From positions 1 to 50,196 of IMG/VR virus record IMGVR_UViG_3300021375_001184: a stretch of 50,196 nucleotides of DNA, one strand, 5' to 3'. Position 1 is the first letter of the stretch; each line of letters opens with the position of its first letter. Both the position numbers and the translations under genes were made by a program. Of this stretch, positions 2,884 to 34,541 are shown piece after piece. The notes under the pieces were generated by a model. It was not told the origin of the DNA. It did no database searches and saw nothing but the letters and a program-made list of their open reading frames with translations. This DNA is from a virus.

Positions 2884-4197
2884 TTATGATTGGCTATAAT
2901 AGGCGTGTTCACCAAATGGCGGGACAATAGTTTCAGAACCGTGAATGATAAACAAACTATCACAATAACTTTCGTCACCCCAACTATCCCAAGGTAAGCC
3001 GTCAGTAAACATAATAAACTTATCAGGTTCAATATCATTATCTTTCATAAACTGGTAGTTGATATCAAAGTCAGTACCACCACCACCGATAATCTCATAC
3101 TCTTTAAGTTCATCAGCATTGTATGGGTCAAACTCTTTATAACCCTCGCCGTTTACTTCGGTATCAAAAGTCCAAACACGAATTTTGAAGTCTTGGAACT
3201 GTTGCATAATGCCAGACATTTCACCAAGGAACTCTTCAATCATAGAAGATGAAATAGAACCAGAAACATCAAGTGCTATTGCAACATCAATCTTTTCTTC
3301 ATTCTTTTGACCAGGCAGATAAACTCCCATTGATTGTGATTTACGAGATTGTCTCATAAATGTGAAGTCACTTTTCAAAAGACTTTGTATTGAAATGTTA
3401 AGAAGTTCACGCCAATCCATCTTAGGATTAGTCATACCATTTATAATTCTTTTAACATCACCAGGAAGAGTACCAGCATCAGTTGATTGTGCCGCTTGAA
3501 TAACAGCCTGTTTCATCTGGTCTTTAATTGCTTGGGCTTCTTGCTTAGAAACTTTGATAGGTGCATTACGACCAGTAGGGTCATCTTTGCCTTCACCATC
3601 TTTTTGAGGTTGACCAAACATATGCTGGTCTAATGTTTCTTTATCATCGCCCTCGCCAGTTTCTTTAAGGTGTTCATAAATTTCTTCGGTGTAACTTCTG
3701 TAATATTTGCGGTCGTGTAATGCCATTTTTGGCATAACACCAACACGAGACTCAACTAATGCTTGGTTAACTTTATAGTCAGCCGCAATATTCCAAAGTT
3801 TCATATCACGTGAATCTTCTTCCATATCCATCAATCGGCCATATTCACCACAATGCTCATATACACAGTGAAGAACTTCGTGACCAACAACAAAATCAAT
3901 TTCTTCTGGTGTCATAGTTCGGAAGAAATCACAGTTGTAATAAAAATGTCTGCCGTCAGTCGCGGCTGTAGGACACCATTCTGCCTCGACTAATTTCAAT
4001 CGAGTAGCAAGTGTACCAAAAAATGGATGACGGATAAGAAGTCTAACACGACTACTCACAATCATTTCTTTAACTTCTAAATCAGTATAATCAAATACTA
4101 CCGGCTCTGGCAGAGTATCATCTACTTCAATACCATTAGCGGCTAATACATCATCTAATGCAGTATCTAATTCTTGTTCATTTGTAACTGTAGGCAT
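2884..4197 (-). CDS. putative metallopeptidase with C-terminal vWA domain
   Basis: This 437-residue protein matches the DUF2201-type architecture. The N-terminal half has a zinc-protease HExxH motif (HEVLH, 106-110). A charged, disordered linker covers about 180-215. The C-terminal von Willebrand A domain has a MIDAS motif (DVSGS, 310-314) and a TDG segment near residue 397. Such proteins work with a MoxR AAA+ ATPase, here encoded at 7993-9120, as chaperone or maturation machines for unknown targets. In bacteria the two genes are usually adjacent. Here six genes lie between them, which suggests an insertion. It has no strong promoter of its own and probably reads from the 4448-4475 promoter through the small gene at 4214-4414. 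Confidence 0.88.
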   Translation of the reverse strand: MPTVTNEQELDTALDDVLAANGIEVDDTLPEPVVFDYTDLEVKEMIVSSRVRLLIRHPFFGTLATRLKLVEAEWCPTAATDGRHFYYNCDFFRTMTPEEIDFVVGHEVLHCVYEHCGEYGRLMDMEEDSRDMKLWNIAADYKVNQALVESRVGVMPKMALHDRKYYRSYTEEIYEHLKETGEGDDKETLDQHMFGQPQKDGEGKDDPTGRNAPIKVSKQEAQAIKDQMKQAVIQAAQSTDAGTLPGDVKRIINGMTNPKMDWRELLNISIQSLLKSDFTFMRQSRKSQSMGVYLPGQKNEEKIDVAIALDVSGSISSSMIEEFLGEMSGIMQQFQDFKIRVWTFDTEVNGEGYKEFDPYNADELKEYEIIGGGGTDFDINYQFMKDNDIEPDKFIMFTDGLPWDSWGDESYCDSLFIIHGSETIVPPFGEHAYYSQS

Positions 4198-4213: not shown

Positions 4214-4414
4214 TTAAAATAAACTTTCGTATGCATTATCACATATATAAGATGCGGTTTCATCTAGTTCACTAAATGCTTCTAGTTCAACTTCTGTTAA
4301 TGGAGTGCCGTCTAACTTTTCTGCACTCTCAACATATGCATCACAAAAATCTGGATAGTCGTTCATATCAACGCCACCTAGTTCAATGTTTGTTACTTCG
4401 TTAAATTTTATCAT
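4214..4414 (-). CDS. small acidic conserved protein
   Basis: The 66-residue acidic protein contains DYPDFCDAYVESAE followed by a LTEVELEAFSEL helix. This pattern recurs, from memory, in short phage proteins of unknown role. It begins at an ATG with a GAGAGG ribosome site, 33 bases downstream of a near-consensus sigma70 promoter (4448-4475), so it is the first gene of a unit that continues into the vWA protein. It has no membrane segment. It could be a small host-directed early protein, but nothing in the sequence proves that. Confidence 0.75.
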   Translation of the reverse strand: MIKFNEVTNIELGGVDMNDYPDFCDAYVESAEKLDGTPLTEVELEAFSELDETASYICDNAYESLF

Positions 4415-4447: not shown

Positions 4448-4475
4448 ATTATAGCACGAATCGTGGTTTTGTCAA
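4448..4475 (-). promoter_or_regulatory. strong sigma70 promoter with spacer dyad
   Basis: TTGACA and TATAAT are perfect, 16 bases apart, with a TGC extension in front of the -10. The spacer holds an 11-base dyad (CACGA-T-TCGTG). The promoters at 9460-9487, 9150-9177 and 5311-5338 share the AAAACTTGACA context and a GAATC-like spacer core. Confidence 0.9.
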
Positions 4476-4479
4476 GTTT

Positions 4480-5280
4480 TTAGGCAAATCTGACATAATT
4501 TACTTTAGTTTCATTGATGTCATTATTTTTCCAAGCAGTTCCTAATGCTTTTACCTTGCACGAAACTTTAATATTCTTCTTACTATTTGCGATATCCTCG
4601 TTTGAAGTAAAGAAAGATAGTCTATGGTTGTCGGTTGTAATAGCATTAATCATATAACCAGACCCACCATATTGAGTTGTTGCTATATATTTTGATGATA
4701 GTATCTCAATCTCAGTGTTGATTTTATCACCAATTTGGCCTAGGTGACCAGATTGATTACTTCTTTCTCTCAGTTCATCATCTTTTGTATCTGTATTGTA
4801 ATAAGTAGGAACATATGCGGCAATTCCAAATACGTGACTGCTCAATGAATTATCATCATTAAGGAATTTAGCAATTCCACTTTCGAATTCAGTCAAATTA
4901 TCAGAAAGAATTTTATAAGCAAACTTGTTTTCAAGGTGTGCCATTATATTCTTTGCTTCTTGGAATATCTTATTTGTAATCAACTCGCGGTAGTTAGTTA
5001 GAATGCCTATAAGTATTTCTTTATTACTAAATGCAATCTTTTTAAATTCACCGTCAACGATATCAAATGAACCGGAAGTCTTAACATATGTGTCGTTAAA
5101 TTCATTCGCAACGATTGATGCACTTAATATCTCAGTTTTAGTAAAAGAATATATGGAATCTAGGTCCTGCATATCTTGTAGTGTTTTCGCAGAATCAGTA
5201 AAATTATACTTACCAAAGTACATTATTACTTTTGAGTCATTAAAATCTATATATTTGTGTGGTTTTGAAGTGTCTATCAT
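4480..5280 (-). CDS. hypothetical protein with OB-fold-like C-terminal domain
   Basis: The protein has 266 residues. Residues 1-165 are helical and unrecognised. The C-terminal 100 residues (from about SGHLGQIGDK) follow the pattern SxHxGxxGDK...beta strands...VKALGTAW. Several phage proteins share this pattern, and I take it to be an OB-like nucleic-acid-binding fold; this is an inference. It is a single-gene unit with its own consensus promoter at 5311-5338, and ends just upstream of the next promoter (4448-4475). That arrangement fits an independently expressed early protein. Confidence 0.75.
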   Translation of the reverse strand: MIDTSKPHKYIDFNDSKVIMYFGKYNFTDSAKTLQDMQDLDSIYSFTKTEILSASIVANEFNDTYVKTSGSFDIVDGEFKKIAFSNKEILIGILTNYRELITNKIFQEAKNIMAHLENKFAYKILSDNLTEFESGIAKFLNDDNSLSSHVFGIAAYVPTYYNTDTKDDELRERSNQSGHLGQIGDKINTEIEILSSKYIATTQYGGSGYMINAITTDNHRLSFFTSNEDIANSKKNIKVSCKVKALGTAWKNNDINETKVNYVRFA

Positions 5281-5310: not shown

Positions 5311-5338
5311 ATTATAACACAAAATCGATTCCTGTCAA
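5311..5338 (-). promoter_or_regulatory. strong sigma70 promoter
   Basis: TTGACA and TATAAT, both perfect, are 16 bases apart with a TGT extension before the -10. The spacer contains the palindrome AATCGATT. It drives the 266-residue gene and lies just beyond the stop of the small ANL ligase gene. Confidence 0.9.
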
Positions 5339-6018
5339 GTTTTTCGCCCTAGATAGTAGAGAATACCGTTCTTTCGTTTGACTAGGTCACCAGTCGCAAA
5401 CCAACCGTCGTACACGCATATATCCCCACGGACGTGTAGTTCGCTGTCTATTATCTTGGTTTCGCACCATTCAAGTGTTCCTAGGATTGTTTGTTCGTCT
5501 TTTACTGATTGTATATCTTCAGTCGTCCTGAACACACGATTGATGGCACAAGGACCTATCTCACTCATACCCCAATTTGCCATAAATGTAGCACCACGAT
5601 TCACAAAGGCTTCAATGATATTCCATTCAACTGGGTCAGAACCACAAGTAATCCAAATCCCAGTCAAATCTAAATCTTTAAATCCTTTAGTTCTCATAAT
5701 AAGTTGAGCGTGTCCAGGAGTAATATGAGTATGTGTGTATTTTTTAATCTCTCTGCAAAAAGAAAAAGCATTAAAGGTTTCGATTGACACTTCTGCACCA
5801 ATACGAAATGCTGGCAATGTTTGAGCGAGTAATCCACCTGCGTGAGTTGTTTTACAGATAGTATATACTTTACTTTTAGATGTTAGTCGTTGGGAAGCGA
5901 TAGCAATTTCATCTGCCGCTTTTAACTTCTCAGGAGTTTGTATTATATCTTTTGGTGTTCCAGTTGTCCCGCTGGTTTTTATTACACAACCCTCGTTAAT
6001 TATTTTTCTTAAGTTCAT
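5335..6018 (-). CDS. short adenylate-forming (ANL) ligase, lacks N- and C-terminal parts
   Basis: This 227-residue protein holds the core of the ANL superfamily (acyl-CoA synthetases, NRPS adenylation domains). It has an intact ATP-binding loop TSGTTGTPK (15-23), the A5 motif NWGMSE (148-153), A7 ATGD (208-211) and ends at the hinge motif GRK (224-226). Normal enzymes have about 150 residues before the TSGTTG loop and a 100-residue C-terminal lid with a catalytic Lys; both are absent here. It is the last gene of a four-gene overlapping run with a second, longer ANL protein (6824-7849). The two may work as a pair, or it may only adenylate a substrate. Substrate unknown. Confidence 0.85.
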   Translation of the reverse strand: MNLRKIINEGCVIKTSGTTGTPKDIIQTPEKLKAADEIAIASQRLTSKSKVYTICKTTHAGGLLAQTLPAFRIGAEVSIETFNAFSFCREIKKYTHTHITPGHAQLIMRTKGFKDLDLTGIWITCGSDPVEWNIIEAFVNRGATFMANWGMSEIGPCAINRVFRTTEDIQSVKDEQTILGTLEWCETKIIDSELHVRGDICVYDGWFATGDLVKRKNGILYYLGRKT

Positions 6019-6277
6019 CTTTTAGTCTTTTCCAAGATGGATGGTCTGGTAAATATTTGTGTAGTGAAATAGTTTGGTCAATCACAACATCAAGTAATTT
6101 GAAGTCGAATAAAGGTGGAAATATTGCGTGTATGATACTAGCAATTGCCATAAACAATTGTTTTCCTGCTTCTCTAAATCCAACATACATATGTTTGAAG
6201 TATAATTTTATACCATTTTGGCGTTTTCTTTTAGCAAGTTCTTCTGTATTTCTAAGATGATTCCAATTAAACCACAT
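5996..6277 (-). CDS. DUF6356-like small membrane-associated protein
   Basis: This 93-residue protein has a central hydrophobic stretch (about residues 38-58) with SIIHAIFPPLFDF. It resembles the DUF6356 pattern (a YxxHM segment followed by IHAxxPxLF) of small bacterial proteins of unknown function; that match is by eye. The AGGAGA ribosome site is good. It overlaps the ends of both neighbours (11 and 23 bases), tying it firmly to the ANL ligase/GNAT unit. It may hold the pathway product or enzymes at the membrane. Confidence 0.7.
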   Translation of the reverse strand: MWFNWNHLRNTEELAKRKRQNGIKLYFKHMYVGFREAGKQLFMAIASIIHAIFPPLFDFKLLDVVIDQTISLHKYLPDHPSWKRLKDELKKNN

Positions 6278-6827
6278 TTTGTTTATCTCCTGTTAACATC
6301 GCTCTACGATGGGTGTACTCGTCTATATTTAGTTTCCATACAGATTGCTCTGTATACCATAATTCTATATCTTTATAATGTTCTACCATACCCACTTTAG
6401 CCAGATACTTAAAAAGTCTGTGAGTCCTATTCATTTTTCCAGATGCATCGTGTTCAATATTAGTTGTAATATATAATTCATCAGTATCACAGAACTCTAT
6501 TTGAAATGGCAATATTTCTCGCCAAGTTATAGCACTCATATGATATTTGCTTAGTCCAAATTCTTTATTATACCCTGGCAATTGTGCGCCTCTAAACATT
6601 ACTCGCCACGCTTTATCACTAACTTCTGGCAATCGGTGACATCCTGCAACTGATATTATCTTATCGTCTGCAATCACACAAAAGTATTCGCCTTGTGCTT
6701 TGCACCATTCATACCTCATTCCCCAATCACATAAAGTAGCATTGTTGGTATATCCTAGTTTTTCTGCCTCTTTACAAAAGACTTCTAACTTAGGTAATAA
6801 CTCGTCTGTAATCGGAACTACTTTCAT
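6267..6827 (-). CDS. GNAT-like acyltransferase
   Basis: The 186-residue protein has the general layout of GNAT N-acyltransferases: an N-terminal strand-helix, FCVIADDKIISVAGCHRLPE as consecutive strands, and a late ITTN-IEHDASGKMNRTHRLFKYLAKVGM segment resembling the fold's second half. The classic acetyl-CoA loop (Q/RxxGxG/A) is not clear, so the donor might not be acetyl-CoA. Its start overlaps the stop of the long ANL gene as ATGA, with no separate ribosome site, which implies translational coupling. In this operon it could transfer an activated acyl group made by the ligases. Confidence 0.6.
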   Translation of the reverse strand: MKVVPITDELLPKLEVFCKEAEKLGYTNNATLCDWGMRYEWCKAQGEYFCVIADDKIISVAGCHRLPEVSDKAWRVMFRGAQLPGYNKEFGLSKYHMSAITWREILPFQIEFCDTDELYITTNIEHDASGKMNRTHRLFKYLAKVGMVEHYKDIELWYTEQSVWKLNIDEYTHRRAMLTGDKQNVV

Positions 6828-7849
6828 TTCGGTGACTTATAAAATAACTTATTATGCTTTCGTTCAAATACATCACCCGTACACCAATAACCTTCCTTGT
6901 CAAACTTTGGTTTCATACTAGCGTATTTGACCATTAGAACTGGACTTTTTATCCACAATTTGTCGTATCTATCTATTCTATATTCGTATTGTTCATTGCA
7001 CTCAAGTTGCAGTTTGTGTTTTGTATCAGGAAAAATTGAGAATGTAAATGACGGTATATGTGTTTCTACGTGGCCATATAAATTTCTAACAACAGGCACA
7101 CCTTTAGAGAATAAAGTGTCTACTATCTCTTCCGATATAATGTTATTATCTATACTTAGTTCTTTCCAGTATGGCATATCTTTTAAATTTGATAGTTCAG
7201 GTAACATTTCGGATGTAACATTTCCTAGAGTTGGTTTATGTTTTTCACATAAATCAGGAGTAAACTGTTCCATAACAATAGTACATCCTTTCATTAATGC
7301 AGGTAATGTATACAGGTATAAATCATTAATTGGCGATTGTGATAGAACCACATCTTCTTCAATCATATTGTGTAATATTATACTATTTAAGCATACAAGT
7401 AAGCATCCAACACTCGTATGAGCAACAGGCTTCGATTCCAGAGTACTTCCGTTTGTAAACATTATAGTGTAGATTGCATCAGGTTTATTCGTGTATATAA
7501 GGCCTTCATTGTGTGGTGTTAGTGCTAAAGCATCTGCTTCACTCATTATGATATGGTCTGGATTACTTCCAGTTACAACCCAATCAAATTCTTCTATTGA
7601 TAGATTTGGCTTTGTTGGTATAAATGTTATGCCTAAAATATCACAAGCCAAGAGCATTCGAATATAATGATAATCTTTTTCACTTGCAAATAGTATAGAC
7701 TCACCTGGTCGAACGGCAGTAGACAATACGGCAGCCAATTGTTCTACACTTTCTATAAGTTTGGTGTAGGTATATTGCTTATCTTTACAAATGATTGCGG
7801 GTTTTGAACCAGAAGTATTTGCCTGGTCTTTGATTGTTTCAAATATCAT
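6824..7849 (-). CDS. adenylate-forming (ANL) ligase with degenerate P-loop
   Basis: This 341-residue protein has the complete N-terminal subdomain of acyl-CoA synthetases and NRPS adenylation domains but no C-terminal lid. The ATP loop, normally TSGTTGxPK, reads FTNGSTLESKPV (131-142), clearly altered. Motif A5 survives as NLYGHVET and A7 as YWCTGDVF near the end. It opens a four-gene operon. A sigma70 promoter (7856-7884) has its -10 only 6 bases before the ATG and there is no ribosome site, so the mRNA is probably leaderless. It may bind substrate while the shorter ligase (5335-6018) supplies an intact ATP loop. That division of labour is my inference. Confidence 0.85.
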   Translation of the reverse strand: MIFETIKDQANTSGSKPAIICKDKQYTYTKLIESVEQLAAVLSTAVRPGESILFASEKDYHYIRMLLACDILGITFIPTKPNLSIEEFDWVVTGSNPDHIIMSEADALALTPHNEGLIYTNKPDAIYTIMFTNGSTLESKPVAHTSVGCLLVCLNSIILHNMIEEDVVLSQSPINDLYLYTLPALMKGCTIVMEQFTPDLCEKHKPTLGNVTSEMLPELSNLKDMPYWKELSIDNNIISEEIVDTLFSKGVPVVRNLYGHVETHIPSFTFSIFPDTKHKLQLECNEQYEYRIDRYDKLWIKSPVLMVKYASMKPKFDKEGYWCTGDVFERKHNKLFYKSPK

Positions 7850-7855
7850 AGTAAT

Positions 7856-7884
7856 ATTGTACTACAAAAACATAGGAAAGTCAA
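7856..7884 (-). promoter_or_regulatory. sigma70 promoter giving a leaderless mRNA
   Basis: TTGACT and TACAAT are 17 bases apart. Only 6 bases separate the -10 from the ATG at 7849, so transcription would start at or beside the start codon of the long ANL ligase gene. Confidence 0.8.
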
Positions 7885-7896
7885 TAGTAGATATAG

Positions 7897-7926
7897 AAAA
7901 GGAGACAAACATTTCTGTTTGCCTCC
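7897..7926 (-). terminator. Rho-independent terminator with GAAA loop
   Basis: On the minus strand GGAGGCAAACA pairs with TGTTTGTCTCC (11 pairs, one G-T) around a GAAA tetraloop, followed by TTTT. It ends the moxR transcript just before the ANL operon promoter. Confidence 0.8.
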
Positions 7927-7939
7927 CGTCTCTTGTAGT

Positions 7940-7992: not shown

Positions 7993-9120
7993 TTAAGCGT
8001 TGTGGGCCTCGATGATTAGTTTACCGTGCTTTTTGAAAAACTTTTCAATACAAGGAACTTTACGAGGCTCTAATGGAAGTTTGTAAACTTTAAGAGCAGT
8101 TCGACCACCCAATACTGTCATTTCAGTATCAAAGTTATCCATCATAAACTGGAAGAAGTTGTTCGCCATAGCATATAACTCATCCATTTTGTCTTTGCCA
8201 TTACGGTCAACAAAGTCTTTTAACTCATAACATAGTGAAGTAGTCAATGAGAACATCGCTGAAATCTCTCTGGCTTCTGTTGAAAGTGTAGTCACTGTGC
8301 CGTCTAAGATATCAGAAGGAACAGGTAACTTACTTGACAAGGCTCTGTGAGCCATAAACTTAGTAGCAACACCATCGCCAACTGTACCAGCAATCAAATC
8401 GTGTAAACGACTTTGTGAAATTTCTTCACCCTCTTGTGGTAACATTTCAGAAACGAAAGTCCAAGAACGAGGAGTAGCAAATGCCCTTGAAGCATTTCTA
8501 GGGTCAAAGTTAAACAAGTCCATCTTGTTTGAAGTTAAGAAACCAACAACATCAGCATTGATTTTGTTCTCTAATGCCCAAGTCTGCCAATCTTCGAAGT
8601 CAACACCCATTTCAAGGTGAACAAAACGGTTAGCAAGTGGTGAAGGCATACGATATGCAACACCTCTATCACTCTCTCTGTTACCAGCCGCAACGATTAA
8701 CACATTGTCAGGTAGTACATAAGAACCTAAACGACGGTTTAGAATTAACTGATAAGCCGCGGCTTGAACTGATTGTGGTGCTTGGTTCATTTCATCTAAG
8801 AAAAGAACAACACTTTCATACTGGTCAGCAAGTTCTTGGCTAGGCAAATCTGAAGGTGTGGCCCATTCCATAGTACCATTCTTCTCATTGAAGTATGGAA
8901 TACCTCGTAAATCTGTAGGCTCCATAAGAGCAAGACGAAGGTCAATCATAAAACCAGAGCGTTCTTGTGTAATACTGTCTACTATCTCTGATTTACCAAC
9001 ACCAGGAGGTCCCCAAATAAACACAGGACGCTTTCGGTTCATAGCATAGTTGATTTCAGCACGAACATCACTAGGACGAACTACTCTCACATCTAAATCG
9101 TTTGTTGATACTTTATTCAT
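7993..9120 (-). CDS. MoxR-type AAA+ ATPase
   Basis: The 375-residue protein has a Walker A motif GPPGVGKS (37-44), Walker B LFLDE (106-110) and the sensor region VAAGNRESDRGV. This is typical of MoxR ATPases, which act as chaperones or activators with vWA-domain partners. The partner is encoded at 2884-4197 (HExxH plus vWA). It starts with a GAGAGG ribosome site under a sigma70 promoter (9150-9177) and ends in a structured 3' UTR with a terminator, so it is a single-gene unit, separated from its partner by the ANL module. Phage MoxR/vWA pairs are known but their targets are not. Confidence 0.93.
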   Translation of the reverse strand: MNKVSTNDLDVRVVRPSDVRAEINYAMNRKRPVFIWGPPGVGKSEIVDSITQERSGFMIDLRLALMEPTDLRGIPYFNEKNGTMEWATPSDLPSQELADQYESVVLFLDEMNQAPQSVQAAAYQLILNRRLGSYVLPDNVLIVAAGNRESDRGVAYRMPSPLANRFVHLEMGVDFEDWQTWALENKINADVVGFLTSNKMDLFNFDPRNASRAFATPRSWTFVSEMLPQEGEEISQSRLHDLIAGTVGDGVATKFMAHRALSSKLPVPSDILDGTVTTLSTEAREISAMFSLTTSLCYELKDFVDRNGKDKMDELYAMANNFFQFMMDNFDTEMTVLGGRTALKVYKLPLEPRKVPCIEKFFKKHGKLIIEAHNA

Positions 9121-9149: not shown

Positions 9150-9177
9150 ATTGTAACACTGATTCTGGATTTGTCAA
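9150..9177 (-). promoter_or_regulatory. sigma70 promoter
   Basis: TTGACA and TACAAT are 16 bases apart with a TGT extension before the -10, in the shared AAAACTTGACA context. It drives moxR. Confidence 0.88.
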
Positions 9178-9459: not shown

Positions 9460-9487
9460 ATTATAGCACGATTCGGGGTTTTGTCAA
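9460..9487 (-). promoter_or_regulatory. strong sigma70 promoter
   Basis: TTGACA and TATAAT are perfect and 16 bases apart, with TGC before the -10. The spacer contains CGAATCGTG, nearly the same as in the promoter at 4448-4475. Confidence 0.9.
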
Positions 9488-29404: not shown

Positions 29405-30451
29405 TTAGACTTGTTTTCCTTCGTCATCGAAAGTAACATCTTCAGCATCATCAAGTGCTACATTGAATTCTCTCAAACGTCTAATGACTGATAAGAAATC
29501 AACAATTGTTGTCCATCTATCGATGAAATAGCCCATTGAACTTTCAACTCGACCAAATGCGTTTAGAACTTGGAATAATACACCAAGTGTAATTAACTGG
29601 TCAAAATATGCTGGTGCTAATACAACTAGTGCTAAGTTACCTACGCATAATCCGAATGCTGTTTGCCATACACCAAATCCCATATACCAGTTGAATAGTC
29701 TATAGTAGTTTCTACGAACTGAATAGAACATTGGAAATAATGTTGAAGTTGCTCTTGCACTAAAGTCATCTTCTGAGTGTACTAATTGTTTTCTCATCTT
29801 TGCTTCTACAACCTGATTTCTATATTCAAGTTTAGGCAGAGGCCAACCAAGTAGAAGTGATATTAGAGTACCACCAATTGATACTGATAATGCTATCCAT
29901 ACTAAGAAACCAGGAATAATTTGACCATTCCAAACTGGTAAACTTTCTGATAAGTTCCATAGAATAGGAAGAAACGCAAATAATATAAGTATAGCACTAA
30001 AGAATCCAGTGAACAATCCTTGAAGTGTCTTACCAAAAATCATTAAGTCTTCTTGTATACGCTGTGAGCCACCTTCTATCTTTGCAGTTGAGTTTTCCCA
30101 ACGTGTCATATAGTGTTTGGTGTTTGCTTCACGCCATCTAAAACAGTATCGTTGTGTTTGCCATGTGGCGTATACTGCGATTGGAGTATATAGGACTATG
30201 ATTTCGACAAAGGATGGTTGTACGCCCTCAGTCAATGTGATGAAATTTAAAAATCTACCAGCGTCCCATCCCAGAAATAGTTCCCAGAATCTTTCTTCTT
30301 GTAGTGATTGAATTACATCATAGATTTCTTTGTTCCAACTATTGTAGAAAACTAATATTTCTACGTTGTACCAAATCATACTTAAAAGAAACGCTAACAT
30401 TAGCCATGCATATGTCCCGTATTCTCGTGTGAAAAAAAATGATTTTAACAT
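29405..30451 (-). CDS. sbmA: SbmA/BacA-like inner-membrane transporter
   Basis: The 348-residue polytopic protein aligns by eye with E. coli SbmA (406 residues). Shared landmarks are YCFRWREANTKHYMTRW (SbmA YVFRWRTAMNEYYMANW), KIEGGSQRIQEDLMIF (HIEGAAQRVQEDTMRF), the FLPIL membrane segment, NQVVEAKMRKQLVHSEDD, and the C-terminal FGRVESSMGYFIDRWTTIVDFLSVIRRLREF. SbmA/BacA are proton-driven importers of peptide antibiotics, bleomycin-like compounds and, for BacA-like proteins, B12. They lack an ATPase domain, as does this one. The first roughly 60 SbmA residues are missing. It has a late promoter (30501-30508), a good ribosome site and its own terminator. Confidence 0.9.
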   Translation of the reverse strand: MLKSFFFTREYGTYAWLMLAFLLSMIWYNVEILVFYNSWNKEIYDVIQSLQEERFWELFLGWDAGRFLNFITLTEGVQPSFVEIIVLYTPIAVYATWQTQRYCFRWREANTKHYMTRWENSTAKIEGGSQRIQEDLMIFGKTLQGLFTGFFSAILILFAFLPILWNLSESLPVWNGQIIPGFLVWIALSVSIGGTLISLLLGWPLPKLEYRNQVVEAKMRKQLVHSEDDFSARATSTLFPMFYSVRRNYYRLFNWYMGFGVWQTAFGLCVGNLALVVLAPAYFDQLITLGVLFQVLNAFGRVESSMGYFIDRWTTIVDFLSVIRRLREFNVALDDAEDVTFDDEGKQV

Positions 30452-33144: not shown

Positions 33145-33585
33145 TTACTCACCCTCTCCAATCATCAATTGAGTTCTTAGAGATACTGAAACAATTAATC
33201 CTGTTAGAGTTGTTAATAGTGCAGTTGCCATACCACTGGCCAACTGACCAATCACGCCTTTCATACCTTCTACATCAGACGGGTCTATAGATGCTAAGTT
33301 TGAACCACCTAACATAAGAATAAAACCTAAAACTGTACCCATCATACCGATAGCCATACAAGTTTCAGCAATGAACCAAAACTTTTCATTCGATGTTGTA
33401 ATATTTTTCAATAACTTATAGCCAATCATAGAACTGGTTAATAGCCAGATTCCTATTAGAACAAAAGAAATGTATGTTTGGTCGTTATTGAGAATATAGA
33501 GGTGCAATTCATACACATATGCGGAGGCTAGAATGATTATTTGTAATACGAAAAATAACCACCATTGTAGAAATGCTTTTGTCAT
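33145..33585 (-). CDS. ExbB/TolQ/MotA-family proton channel protein
   Basis: The 146-residue membrane protein has about four hydrophobic segments. The last two match the conserved TolQ/ExbB core: CMAIGMMGTVLGFILML, then SGMATALLTTLTGLIVSV, with the usual small-residue helix packing and Thr residues lining the pore. It is much shorter than ExbB (244) or TolQ (230), lacking most cytoplasmic regions. Start ATG 33585 follows GGGAGAG; the in-frame GTG at 33600 is less likely. A late promoter (33627-33634) begins the unit. The ExbD-like gene follows at once. Confidence 0.85.
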   Translation of the reverse strand: MTKAFLQWWLFFVLQIIILASAYVYELHLYILNNDQTYISFVLIGIWLLTSSMIGYKLLKNITTSNEKFWFIAETCMAIGMMGTVLGFILMLGGSNLASIDPSDVEGMKGVIGQLASGMATALLTTLTGLIVSVSLRTQLMIGEGE

Positions 33586-33626
33586 CGTGTTCTCTCCCAC
33601 TTTTATAGTTTTGATTTATCTAACTA

Positions 33627-33710: not shown

Positions 33711-34541
33711 TTAGAAAGTAAGTTTGATACCTGCTGAAACAGTAGAATCACCATCTTCGACTTTATCATATGAATAAGTCATAATACCACGCTTAAGAGC
33801 AACAGTATAAGTGTTTTTACTATTTAGTTCTACAACTTTAGCAGAGATGTCGCCCATAGCAACTTTTAAGCCTCTAACATCTGTGCCATTTGTAGCACTA
33901 GTCATAGTTCCTAGCAAAGAGTGTTTGCTATCACCAGTTTTAGTAACACTTGCATCACCAATTGATGCATTTGCTACATCTACTTGGAATCCTGCTACTT
34001 CTACGCCAGCATCCAAGATTGTGTTAGTTCCAGTTGTTGTTTTCTGATATGAACCACCAATGTCCGTCAAATCACCCAACAAAACATTAGCACTTAGAAG
34101 TCTATCAGAATCTAAGATGTCTTCACCTGCAACATTAATCGGTCCTAAGTCTGTACTAGCGCCAATCTCTGTTGATTGATTTGCACCGGATGGTTGGTAT
34201 GCTGAAACAGTAACACCTGCGACTGTAGTTGACGCTTTCATTCCCATTTCACCATCTACTTTACCAAGTCTAAGGTCAATTGAAGAAATTGATGTGTCAA
34301 TGTATAAGTCACCTACAGTTCCAGTCTCATCGACTTTCGCTGTAACTGAGCCAGCCTCAGTTGCCATGCCAACAACAACTTCAAGTTCTTGTGTATATGT
34401 GCCTGAGTCTGTAGCAGTGCCTTCGTATGTACCAGAAACTGAAACACCTGATTGTGTGGCTGCTTCTGGTTCGGCAAATGCGGCGAATGGCGTTGTTAAC
34501 AAAGCCGTACCCACAATTGCGGTTCTCAATAAAGTATTCAT
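33711..34541 (-). CDS. outer-membrane beta-barrel (porin-like) protein
   Basis: The 276-residue protein has a clear signal peptide (MNTLLRTAIVGTALLTTPFA, cut after AFA at 23). Then come many alternating strands rich in Gly, Thr, Ser and Val, for example SGTYEGTATDSG and SISSIDLRLGKVDG. The chain ends in Phe (SAGIKLTF), the classic C-terminal signal for BAM-dependent barrel insertion. Diffusible-porin and phage-encoded porin-like proteins share this look, but no exact family is recognised. It has its own sigma70 promoter with an embedded late octamer, a structured leader and a terminator, so it can be made both early and late. A role in uptake, superinfection exclusion or envelope stress is open. 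Confidence 0.82.
   Translation of the reverse strand: MNTLLRTAIVGTALLTTPFAAFAEPEAATQSGVSVSGTYEGTATDSGTYTQELEVVVGMATEAGSVTAKVDETGTVGDLYIDTSISSIDLRLGKVDGEMGMKASTTVAGVTVSAYQPSGANQSTEIGASTDLGPINVAGEDILDSDRLLSANVLLGDLTDIGGSYQKTTTGTNTILDAGVEVAGFQVDVANASIGDASVTKTGDSKHSLLGTMTSATNGTDVRGLKVAMGDISAKVVELNSKNTYTVALKRGIMTYSYDKVEDGDSTVSAGIKLTF

Follow-up and report, generated by a model that had tools for sequence, protein, structure and literature searches.

ANL ligases are two-domain enzymes in which the C-terminal lid drives adenylation, and most of them use a lid lysine (motif A10) for this step. A literature search for lid-less ANL enzymes returned nothing relevant. With regard to halogenating enzymes from viruses, the halogenase of Gkotsi et al. 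2019, as cited in PMC10452541, is of the Tryptophan-halogenase type. A literature search for phage halogenase-ketosynthase clusters likewise returned nothing relevant. The locus described here lies in a 50-kb fragment (50,196 nucleotides, referred to as the window) of an uncultured marine phage and combines two truncated ANL ligases, ligL and ligS, with genes for a GNAT-like and a DUF6356 protein.

Source phage and organization of the four-gene unit

The DNA polymerase and the MoxR protein encoded in the window are nearest to those of jumbo phages such as Atu_ph07, Phosso, GAP32 and PA5oct, and contigs related to the window reach 246 and 343 kb. Judged from its sequence, the source is a marine jumbo phage; none of the isolated phages gave a DNA match to the window. 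The four genes are minus-strand open reading frames that overlap by 4, 11 and 23 bases (Table 1), in agreement with the preliminary description. A terminator-like hairpin and a promoter-like site precede ligL, and a second promoter-like site, that of orf4480, is found at the ligS stop codon, whose TGA falls inside the TTGACA hexamer. Hence, the genes are laid out as one transcription unit according to these signals, all of which are consensus matches only. Several genes of the window are preceded by nearly perfect TTGACA-16-TATAAT sites that have a TG in front of the second hexamer (4448-4475, 5311-5338, 9150-9177 and 9460-9487).

Table 1. Features of the four-gene unit and its flanks, in window coordinates
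Feature	Position	Strand	Basis or remark
Upstream flank, moxR-like AAA+ ATPase	7993..9120	-	phrog_1297 1.5e-96
Terminator-like hairpin, 3' of moxR	7900..7927	-	12-pair stem followed by TTTTCT
Promoter-like site of the operon, TTGACT-17-TACAAT, immediately 5' of the ligL start	7856..7884	-	10/12 consensus positions; consensus match only
ligL, truncated ANL ligase, 341 aa	6824..7849	-	Pfam AMP-binding 2.7e-24, profile 2-335/384
GNAT-fold acyltransferase, 186 aa	6267..6827	-	AlphaFold pLDDT 87.6; best Foldseek matches GNAT; A2 alignment
DUF6356 protein, 93 aa	5996..6277	-	Pfam PF19883 2.7e-6, above cut-off
ligS, minimal lid-less ANL ligase, 227 aa	5335..6018	-	Pfam AMP-binding 1.3e-15, profile 168-375/384
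Promoter-like site of orf4480, TTGACA-16-TATAAT	5311..5338	-	12/12 consensus positions; consensus match only
Downstream flank orf4480, no function assigned	4480..5280	-	phrog_2319 7.6e-10; syntenic in relatives
orf4214	4214-4414		between the four-gene block and vWA
Downstream flank, vWA/metallopeptidase-like DUF2201 protein	2884..4197	-	Pfam DUF2201_N 2.1e-35, DUF2201 1e-13

A search for the four genes elsewhere found all of them together in two further contigs (L001 and L002). As, in addition, each of the four genes is under purifying selection, the set is more than a chance assembly. Elsewhere in the window, positions 29405-30451 encode an SbmA/BacA-like peptide transporter (Pfam 7.2e-75), with a similar-looking protein at L082:187-1161. 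Furthermore, a MotA/TolQ/ExbB-like proton channel protein is encoded at 33145-33600, and the adjoining gene (33711-34541) may, judged by eye, encode a secreted barrel-like protein.

The moxR-vWA site and its cassettes

The four-gene block had been placed between moxR and its vWA partner. It does lie between the two, but the vWA gene does not adjoin it, as orf4480 and orf4214 intervene. A scan based on orf4480 gave only two loci, and the site was surveyed through moxR instead, covering 80 moxR-type loci; the contigs are fragments, and the counts refer to loci, some of which are nearly identical. The vWA gene comes immediately after moxR in 15 related viral loci, i. e. the site is empty and the two genes are indeed neighbors. 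Another 30 or so viral loci harbor at this position a cassette that encodes a full-length ligL (454-480 aa) with intact lid and ATP loop, a Trp-halogenase, optional desaturases (one or two desaturase-like proteins), GNAT2 and a FabF-like ketosynthase (e. g. L088:5959-10883, L082:5965-12312, L142, L167 and L185). Both the empty sites and these alternative occupants show the site to be a recombination hotspot at which cassettes are exchanged, and they bear out the earlier suggestion that a module was inserted between moxR and vWA.

The halogenase-ketosynthase cassette looks like a phage-borne pathway for halogenated or unsaturated acyl compounds; as a unit of ligase, halogenase, GNAT and ketosynthase, it was not found in isolated phages. 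Within the 50-kb window, a search for halogenase, ketosynthase and desaturase remnants as well as for an aminotransferase gave none; only GNAT2 gave a match, to the GNAT gene. Both cassette types can occur in one phage: a 343-kb phage contig (L221:8810-10043, G012) carries the full-length ligL cassette and a GNAT-ligS pair about 38 kb apart. In L152, a close relative of L072, two genes (one of them HNH-like by eye) are located between moxR and a truncated ligL (L152:9109-10337). The moxR-vWA hotspot shows that uncultured jumbo phages swap small biosynthesis-like cassettes.

A family of minimal ANL proteins

Although only about 230 residues long, ligS is readily recognized as an ANL protein (Pfam AMP-binding, 57.5 bits vs a cut-off of 29.9). 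Its ATP loop is intact (TSGTTGTPK), while roughly the first 150 residues of the ANL fold and the entire lid are missing, as had been noted before. Motif A3 (TSGTTGxPK), the A5 glutamate, the A7 aspartate and the A8 hinge arginine are invariant or nearly so among 26 aligned homologues, in which S16, G17, G20, K23, W149, G150, E153, T209, D211 and R225 are invariant. Roughly 100 viral relatives are present in IMG/VR, with 47-97% identity among the 80 that were kept; in 50,697 records of isolated phages, none was found. All 52 distinct viral ligS sequences start at about the ATP loop, have their last residue at the hinge arginine or within 15 residues after it, and lack the lid with its catalytic lysine. 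The absence of this lid is shared with ligL, both proteins stopping at the hinge, just as the preliminary description had it.

The AlphaFold model of ligS (pLDDT 95.6, pTM 0.91) predicts that the protein folds by itself. Foldseek matched this model to MenE and other ANL ligases with TM scores of about 0.8 (0.81 to MenE 3ipl), and the matches by sequence and fold include oxalyl-CoA and feruloyl-CoA synthetases and the amide synthetase McbA in addition to MenE. The uniform truncated form together with the confident model argues that ligS is a complete small protein and not a fragment. It belongs to a minimal ANL family without N-terminal subdomain and lid that is widespread and apparently undescribed, and which offers an opportunity to test how small a sufficient ANL fold can be.

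In phages, ligS is often the last gene of a cluster with the order GNAT, DUF6356, aminotransferase class IV, methyltransferase/oxygenase, radical SAM/halogenase, GMP reductase-like and ligS. Among 68 phage loci with at least 1.2 kb of upstream sequence, the genes found upstream of ligS encode GNAT (40/68), DUF6356 (35/68), aminotransferase IV and GMP reductase-like proteins (23/68 each) and ligL (3/68). Many ligS loci lack GNAT and DUF6356, some of them on contigs that are cut short; the coupling of these two genes to ligS is common, not obligatory. For the GNAT gene no Pfam match was obtained. The best PDB matches of its AlphaFold model in Foldseek are GNAT acetyltransferases (best E 1.4e-5), so that the GNAT fold that had been surmised is confirmed at the level of the predicted structure. 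Alignment A2 shows no clear Q/RxxGxG/A acyl-CoA loop, but this region (residues 81-100) is modeled with low confidence. Relatives were not found in isolated phages. The DUF6356 assignment holds as well (PF19883, 27.9 bits vs a gathering cut-off of 24.4); this protein has a hydrophobic stretch at residues 41-66 according to hydropathy, and its family receives one passing mention in the literature. In eight loci (L010, L033, L042, L047, L051, L056, L057 and L060; e. g. L042:8100-11811), a third ANL ligase of 380-393 aa with a lid is encoded downstream of ligS, adjoining TctA/TctC-like transporter genes.

Members of the family are found in marine bacteria as well as in at least 80 viral loci of marine origin. 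Genome assemblies of bacteria contain ligS in 40 loci, from SAR11, Methylophilaceae (OM43), Gammaproteobacteria and others. About 22 of these belong to SAR11 and share the gene order photolyase-related gene, SDR, ligS, sugar dehydrogenase-like gene. As only 2 of 147 sampled genomes of the SAR11 family (Pelagibacteraceae) contain ligS, it is an accessory and not a core gene in this group. On the ligS tree, the label phage or bacterium switches at least five times, the true number being lower, since two of the loci counted as "bacterial", L128 and L136, resemble phage contigs in genome bins by their gene content. The tree suggests repeated movement of ligS between phages and bacteria. A DUF6356-ligS pair is also found in the bacterial loci L130 and L134. 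The contexts of ligS in bacteria are unrelated and give no substrate. In L129, L130, L132 and L133, ligS follows a guaB-like and a probable guaA gene, and in many phages it follows a GMP reductase-like gene. Such neighbors may point toward a possible link of ligS to guanine nucleotides.

Proposed function of the cassette

Taken together, the reading that we prefer, with a probability of about 0.5, is that of a metabolic cassette residing at the hotspot. In this proposal, which draws on what is known of the respective families for chemistry, substrates, membrane role and pseudoenzyme role, the lid-less ligS would activate a small carboxylate as acyl-adenylate, and the GNAT protein would then pass the acyl group to an amine. 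The hydrophobic DUF6356 protein may assist beside ligS, perhaps at the membrane. Finally, ligL would be an accessory relic, probably a selected pseudoenzyme that binds a substrate or partner or serves as a scaffold. Several points weigh against this proposal. The lid lysine is missing in the whole ligS family, which makes its activity putative; the GNAT shows no clear acyl-CoA loop; the coupling of GNAT and DUF6356 to ligS is not obligatory; and the bacterial contexts give no substrate. In addition, the window is a fragment, so that partners may be encoded outside it, for example an aminotransferase like that of L072.

Alternatively, the operon could be a counter-defence or host-takeover unit. 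The role of ligS and GNAT would then be to alter or inactivate a small molecule, tRNA or protein of the host and not to make a product. The phage setting, the GNAT acyltransferase and a promoter-like site of host sigma-70 type would be in line with such a function, which is nevertheless unlikely, even if it fares best among the alternatives. In other phages, these genes share clusters with genes for an aminotransferase, a halogenase, radical SAM proteins and oxygenases, which look product-building, and ligS is also chromosomal in bacteria. Moreover, PADLOC gave no convincing match (best E 0.028), by which a defence system was rejected as well.

Origin and selection of ligL

Consistent with the preliminary description, ligL possesses the N-terminal subdomain (its profile match begins at position 2) and a damaged ATP loop, which reads TNGSTLESKP where relatives have TSGTTGxPK. 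The open reading frame ends at FYKSPK, before the hinge and lid, whereas full-length relatives run about 120 residues further; its own A5-A7 core is retained. The ATP loop is hit disproportionately: 5 of its 6 invariant columns are lost in the truncated set, compared to 13 of 127 elsewhere (P = 1.5e-4). The truncated ligL sequences of the window, L001, L002, L072, L152 and L093 form a single clade nested within full-length ligL (support 100/99), and a further truncated ligL, that of L160, may or may not join this clade (p-AU 0.114). On this phylogeny, ligL descends from a full-length ligase that heads another cassette. No relatives were found in isolated phages.

Between the window and L002, the dN/dS of ligL is 0.107, and other pairs of the truncated clade gave 0.11-0.19; as dS values above 1 are saturated, the argument for selection relies on the window-L002 pair. 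Its 131 substitutions cause 41 amino-acid changes and no stop, compared to 90 changes and 5.8 stops expected from randomization. The dN/dS values and the randomization test rule out that both ligases are pseudogenes, a possibility that the preliminary description had left room for; both genes are under purifying selection. Accordingly worded, truncated ligL is best described as a selected pseudoenzyme and not a pseudogene, and it may serve as a natural case of an enzyme on its way to this state.

These data also bear on the idea that ligL is a leftover of a former cassette without a role in the present operon. It would readily account for the loss of ATP loop and lid and for the fact that, at this very site, a full-length ligL heads the halogenase-ketosynthase cassette. 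Selection has continued after truncation, however, and the truncated form persists across a whole diversified clade, which renders this idea improbable, slightly more so than a role in counter-defence.

One split ligase or two proteins?

In the preliminary description, ligL and ligS were seen as complementary halves of one enzyme. A heteromeric ligase, with ligL providing the N-terminal subdomain and its acyl pocket and ligS the ATP loop, would agree with their complementary defects, with the selection acting on both and with the position of truncated ligL, which overlaps the next gene and precedes GNAT/ligS-type genes in three lineages. Behind truncated ligL, three different cassettes of this type are found (window type, L072/L152 and L160), always tightly coupled. 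On the ligS tree as well as on the GNAT tree, the window and L072 belong to separate clades, some long branches making these placements uncertain. In L160, truncated ligL is followed by a halogenase of the L060 type (80% identity) and a GNAT read by eye from the DNA, before the contig ends ahead of ligS.

Several observations stand against a split enzyme. First, ligS is a constantly truncated family that is predicted to fold by itself and that occurs without ligL in 65 of the 68 phage loci as well as in bacterial contigs, while ligL stems from another cassette. Conversely, the 17.8-kb contig of L093/L156 has an oxygenase-like gene behind truncated ligL and carries no ligS. L001 couples a ligS of 97% and a DUF6356 of 99% identity to those of the window with a ligL of only 61% identity and tenfold higher dS, which indicates that ligL was exchanged separately. 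In addition, ligL's own A5-A7 core would compete for the same surface. An obligate ligL-ligS heteromer in this phage clade, in which a pseudoenzyme and a mini-enzyme from different cassettes would make up a new adenylating enzyme, is thus doubtful, and somewhat less probable again than a functionless ligL. A weaker link between the two is possible in view of the repeated placement of ligL before GNAT/ligS-type cassettes and the continued selection. The data agree better with an accessory role of ligL, as in the preferred metabolic cassette, than with a split enzyme that requires both parts.

Least likely of all, ligS might not ligate but act as a sensor or hydrolase of acyl-adenylates or nucleotides. 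The family-wide loss of the lid needed for adenylation, the GMP reductase-like neighbors in many phages and the guaB-guaA-like genes of the bacterial loci L129-L133 could suggest this, but every ATP residue of the N-domain is invariant in ligS.

Comparison with known systems

Tryptophan-halogenase-type genes of marine cyanophages (e. g. S-RIM44) resemble the sister cassette at the moxR-vWA site in being phage-borne, secondary-metabolism-like genes; the identity is 27-31%, and the window itself has no halogenase. Closer to ligS is PRK07824 (NCBIfam), a short actinobacterial MenE-type model of 362 aa that likewise begins shortly before the ATP loop and to which ligS aligns at positions 46-261. 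In contrast to ligS, which ends at the hinge, this model runs about 100 positions past the match, and ligS scores 27.5 bits vs a cut-off of 345. A small phage ANL protein is also known from an uncultured Caudovirales phage (A0A6J5L770, AMP-dependent synthetase/ligase, 214 aa), whose predicted structure resembles ligS with TM scores of 0.75/0.79 at 22% identity. Compared to the ANL ligases MenE, feruloyl- and oxalyl-CoA synthetases and McbA, ligL is distinguished by the missing ATP loop and lid, and ligS by about 20% identity and the absence of the first ~150 residues and the lid. Yet, ligS shares with these enzymes the same predicted fold, motifs A3, A5 and A7, and the hinge arginine.
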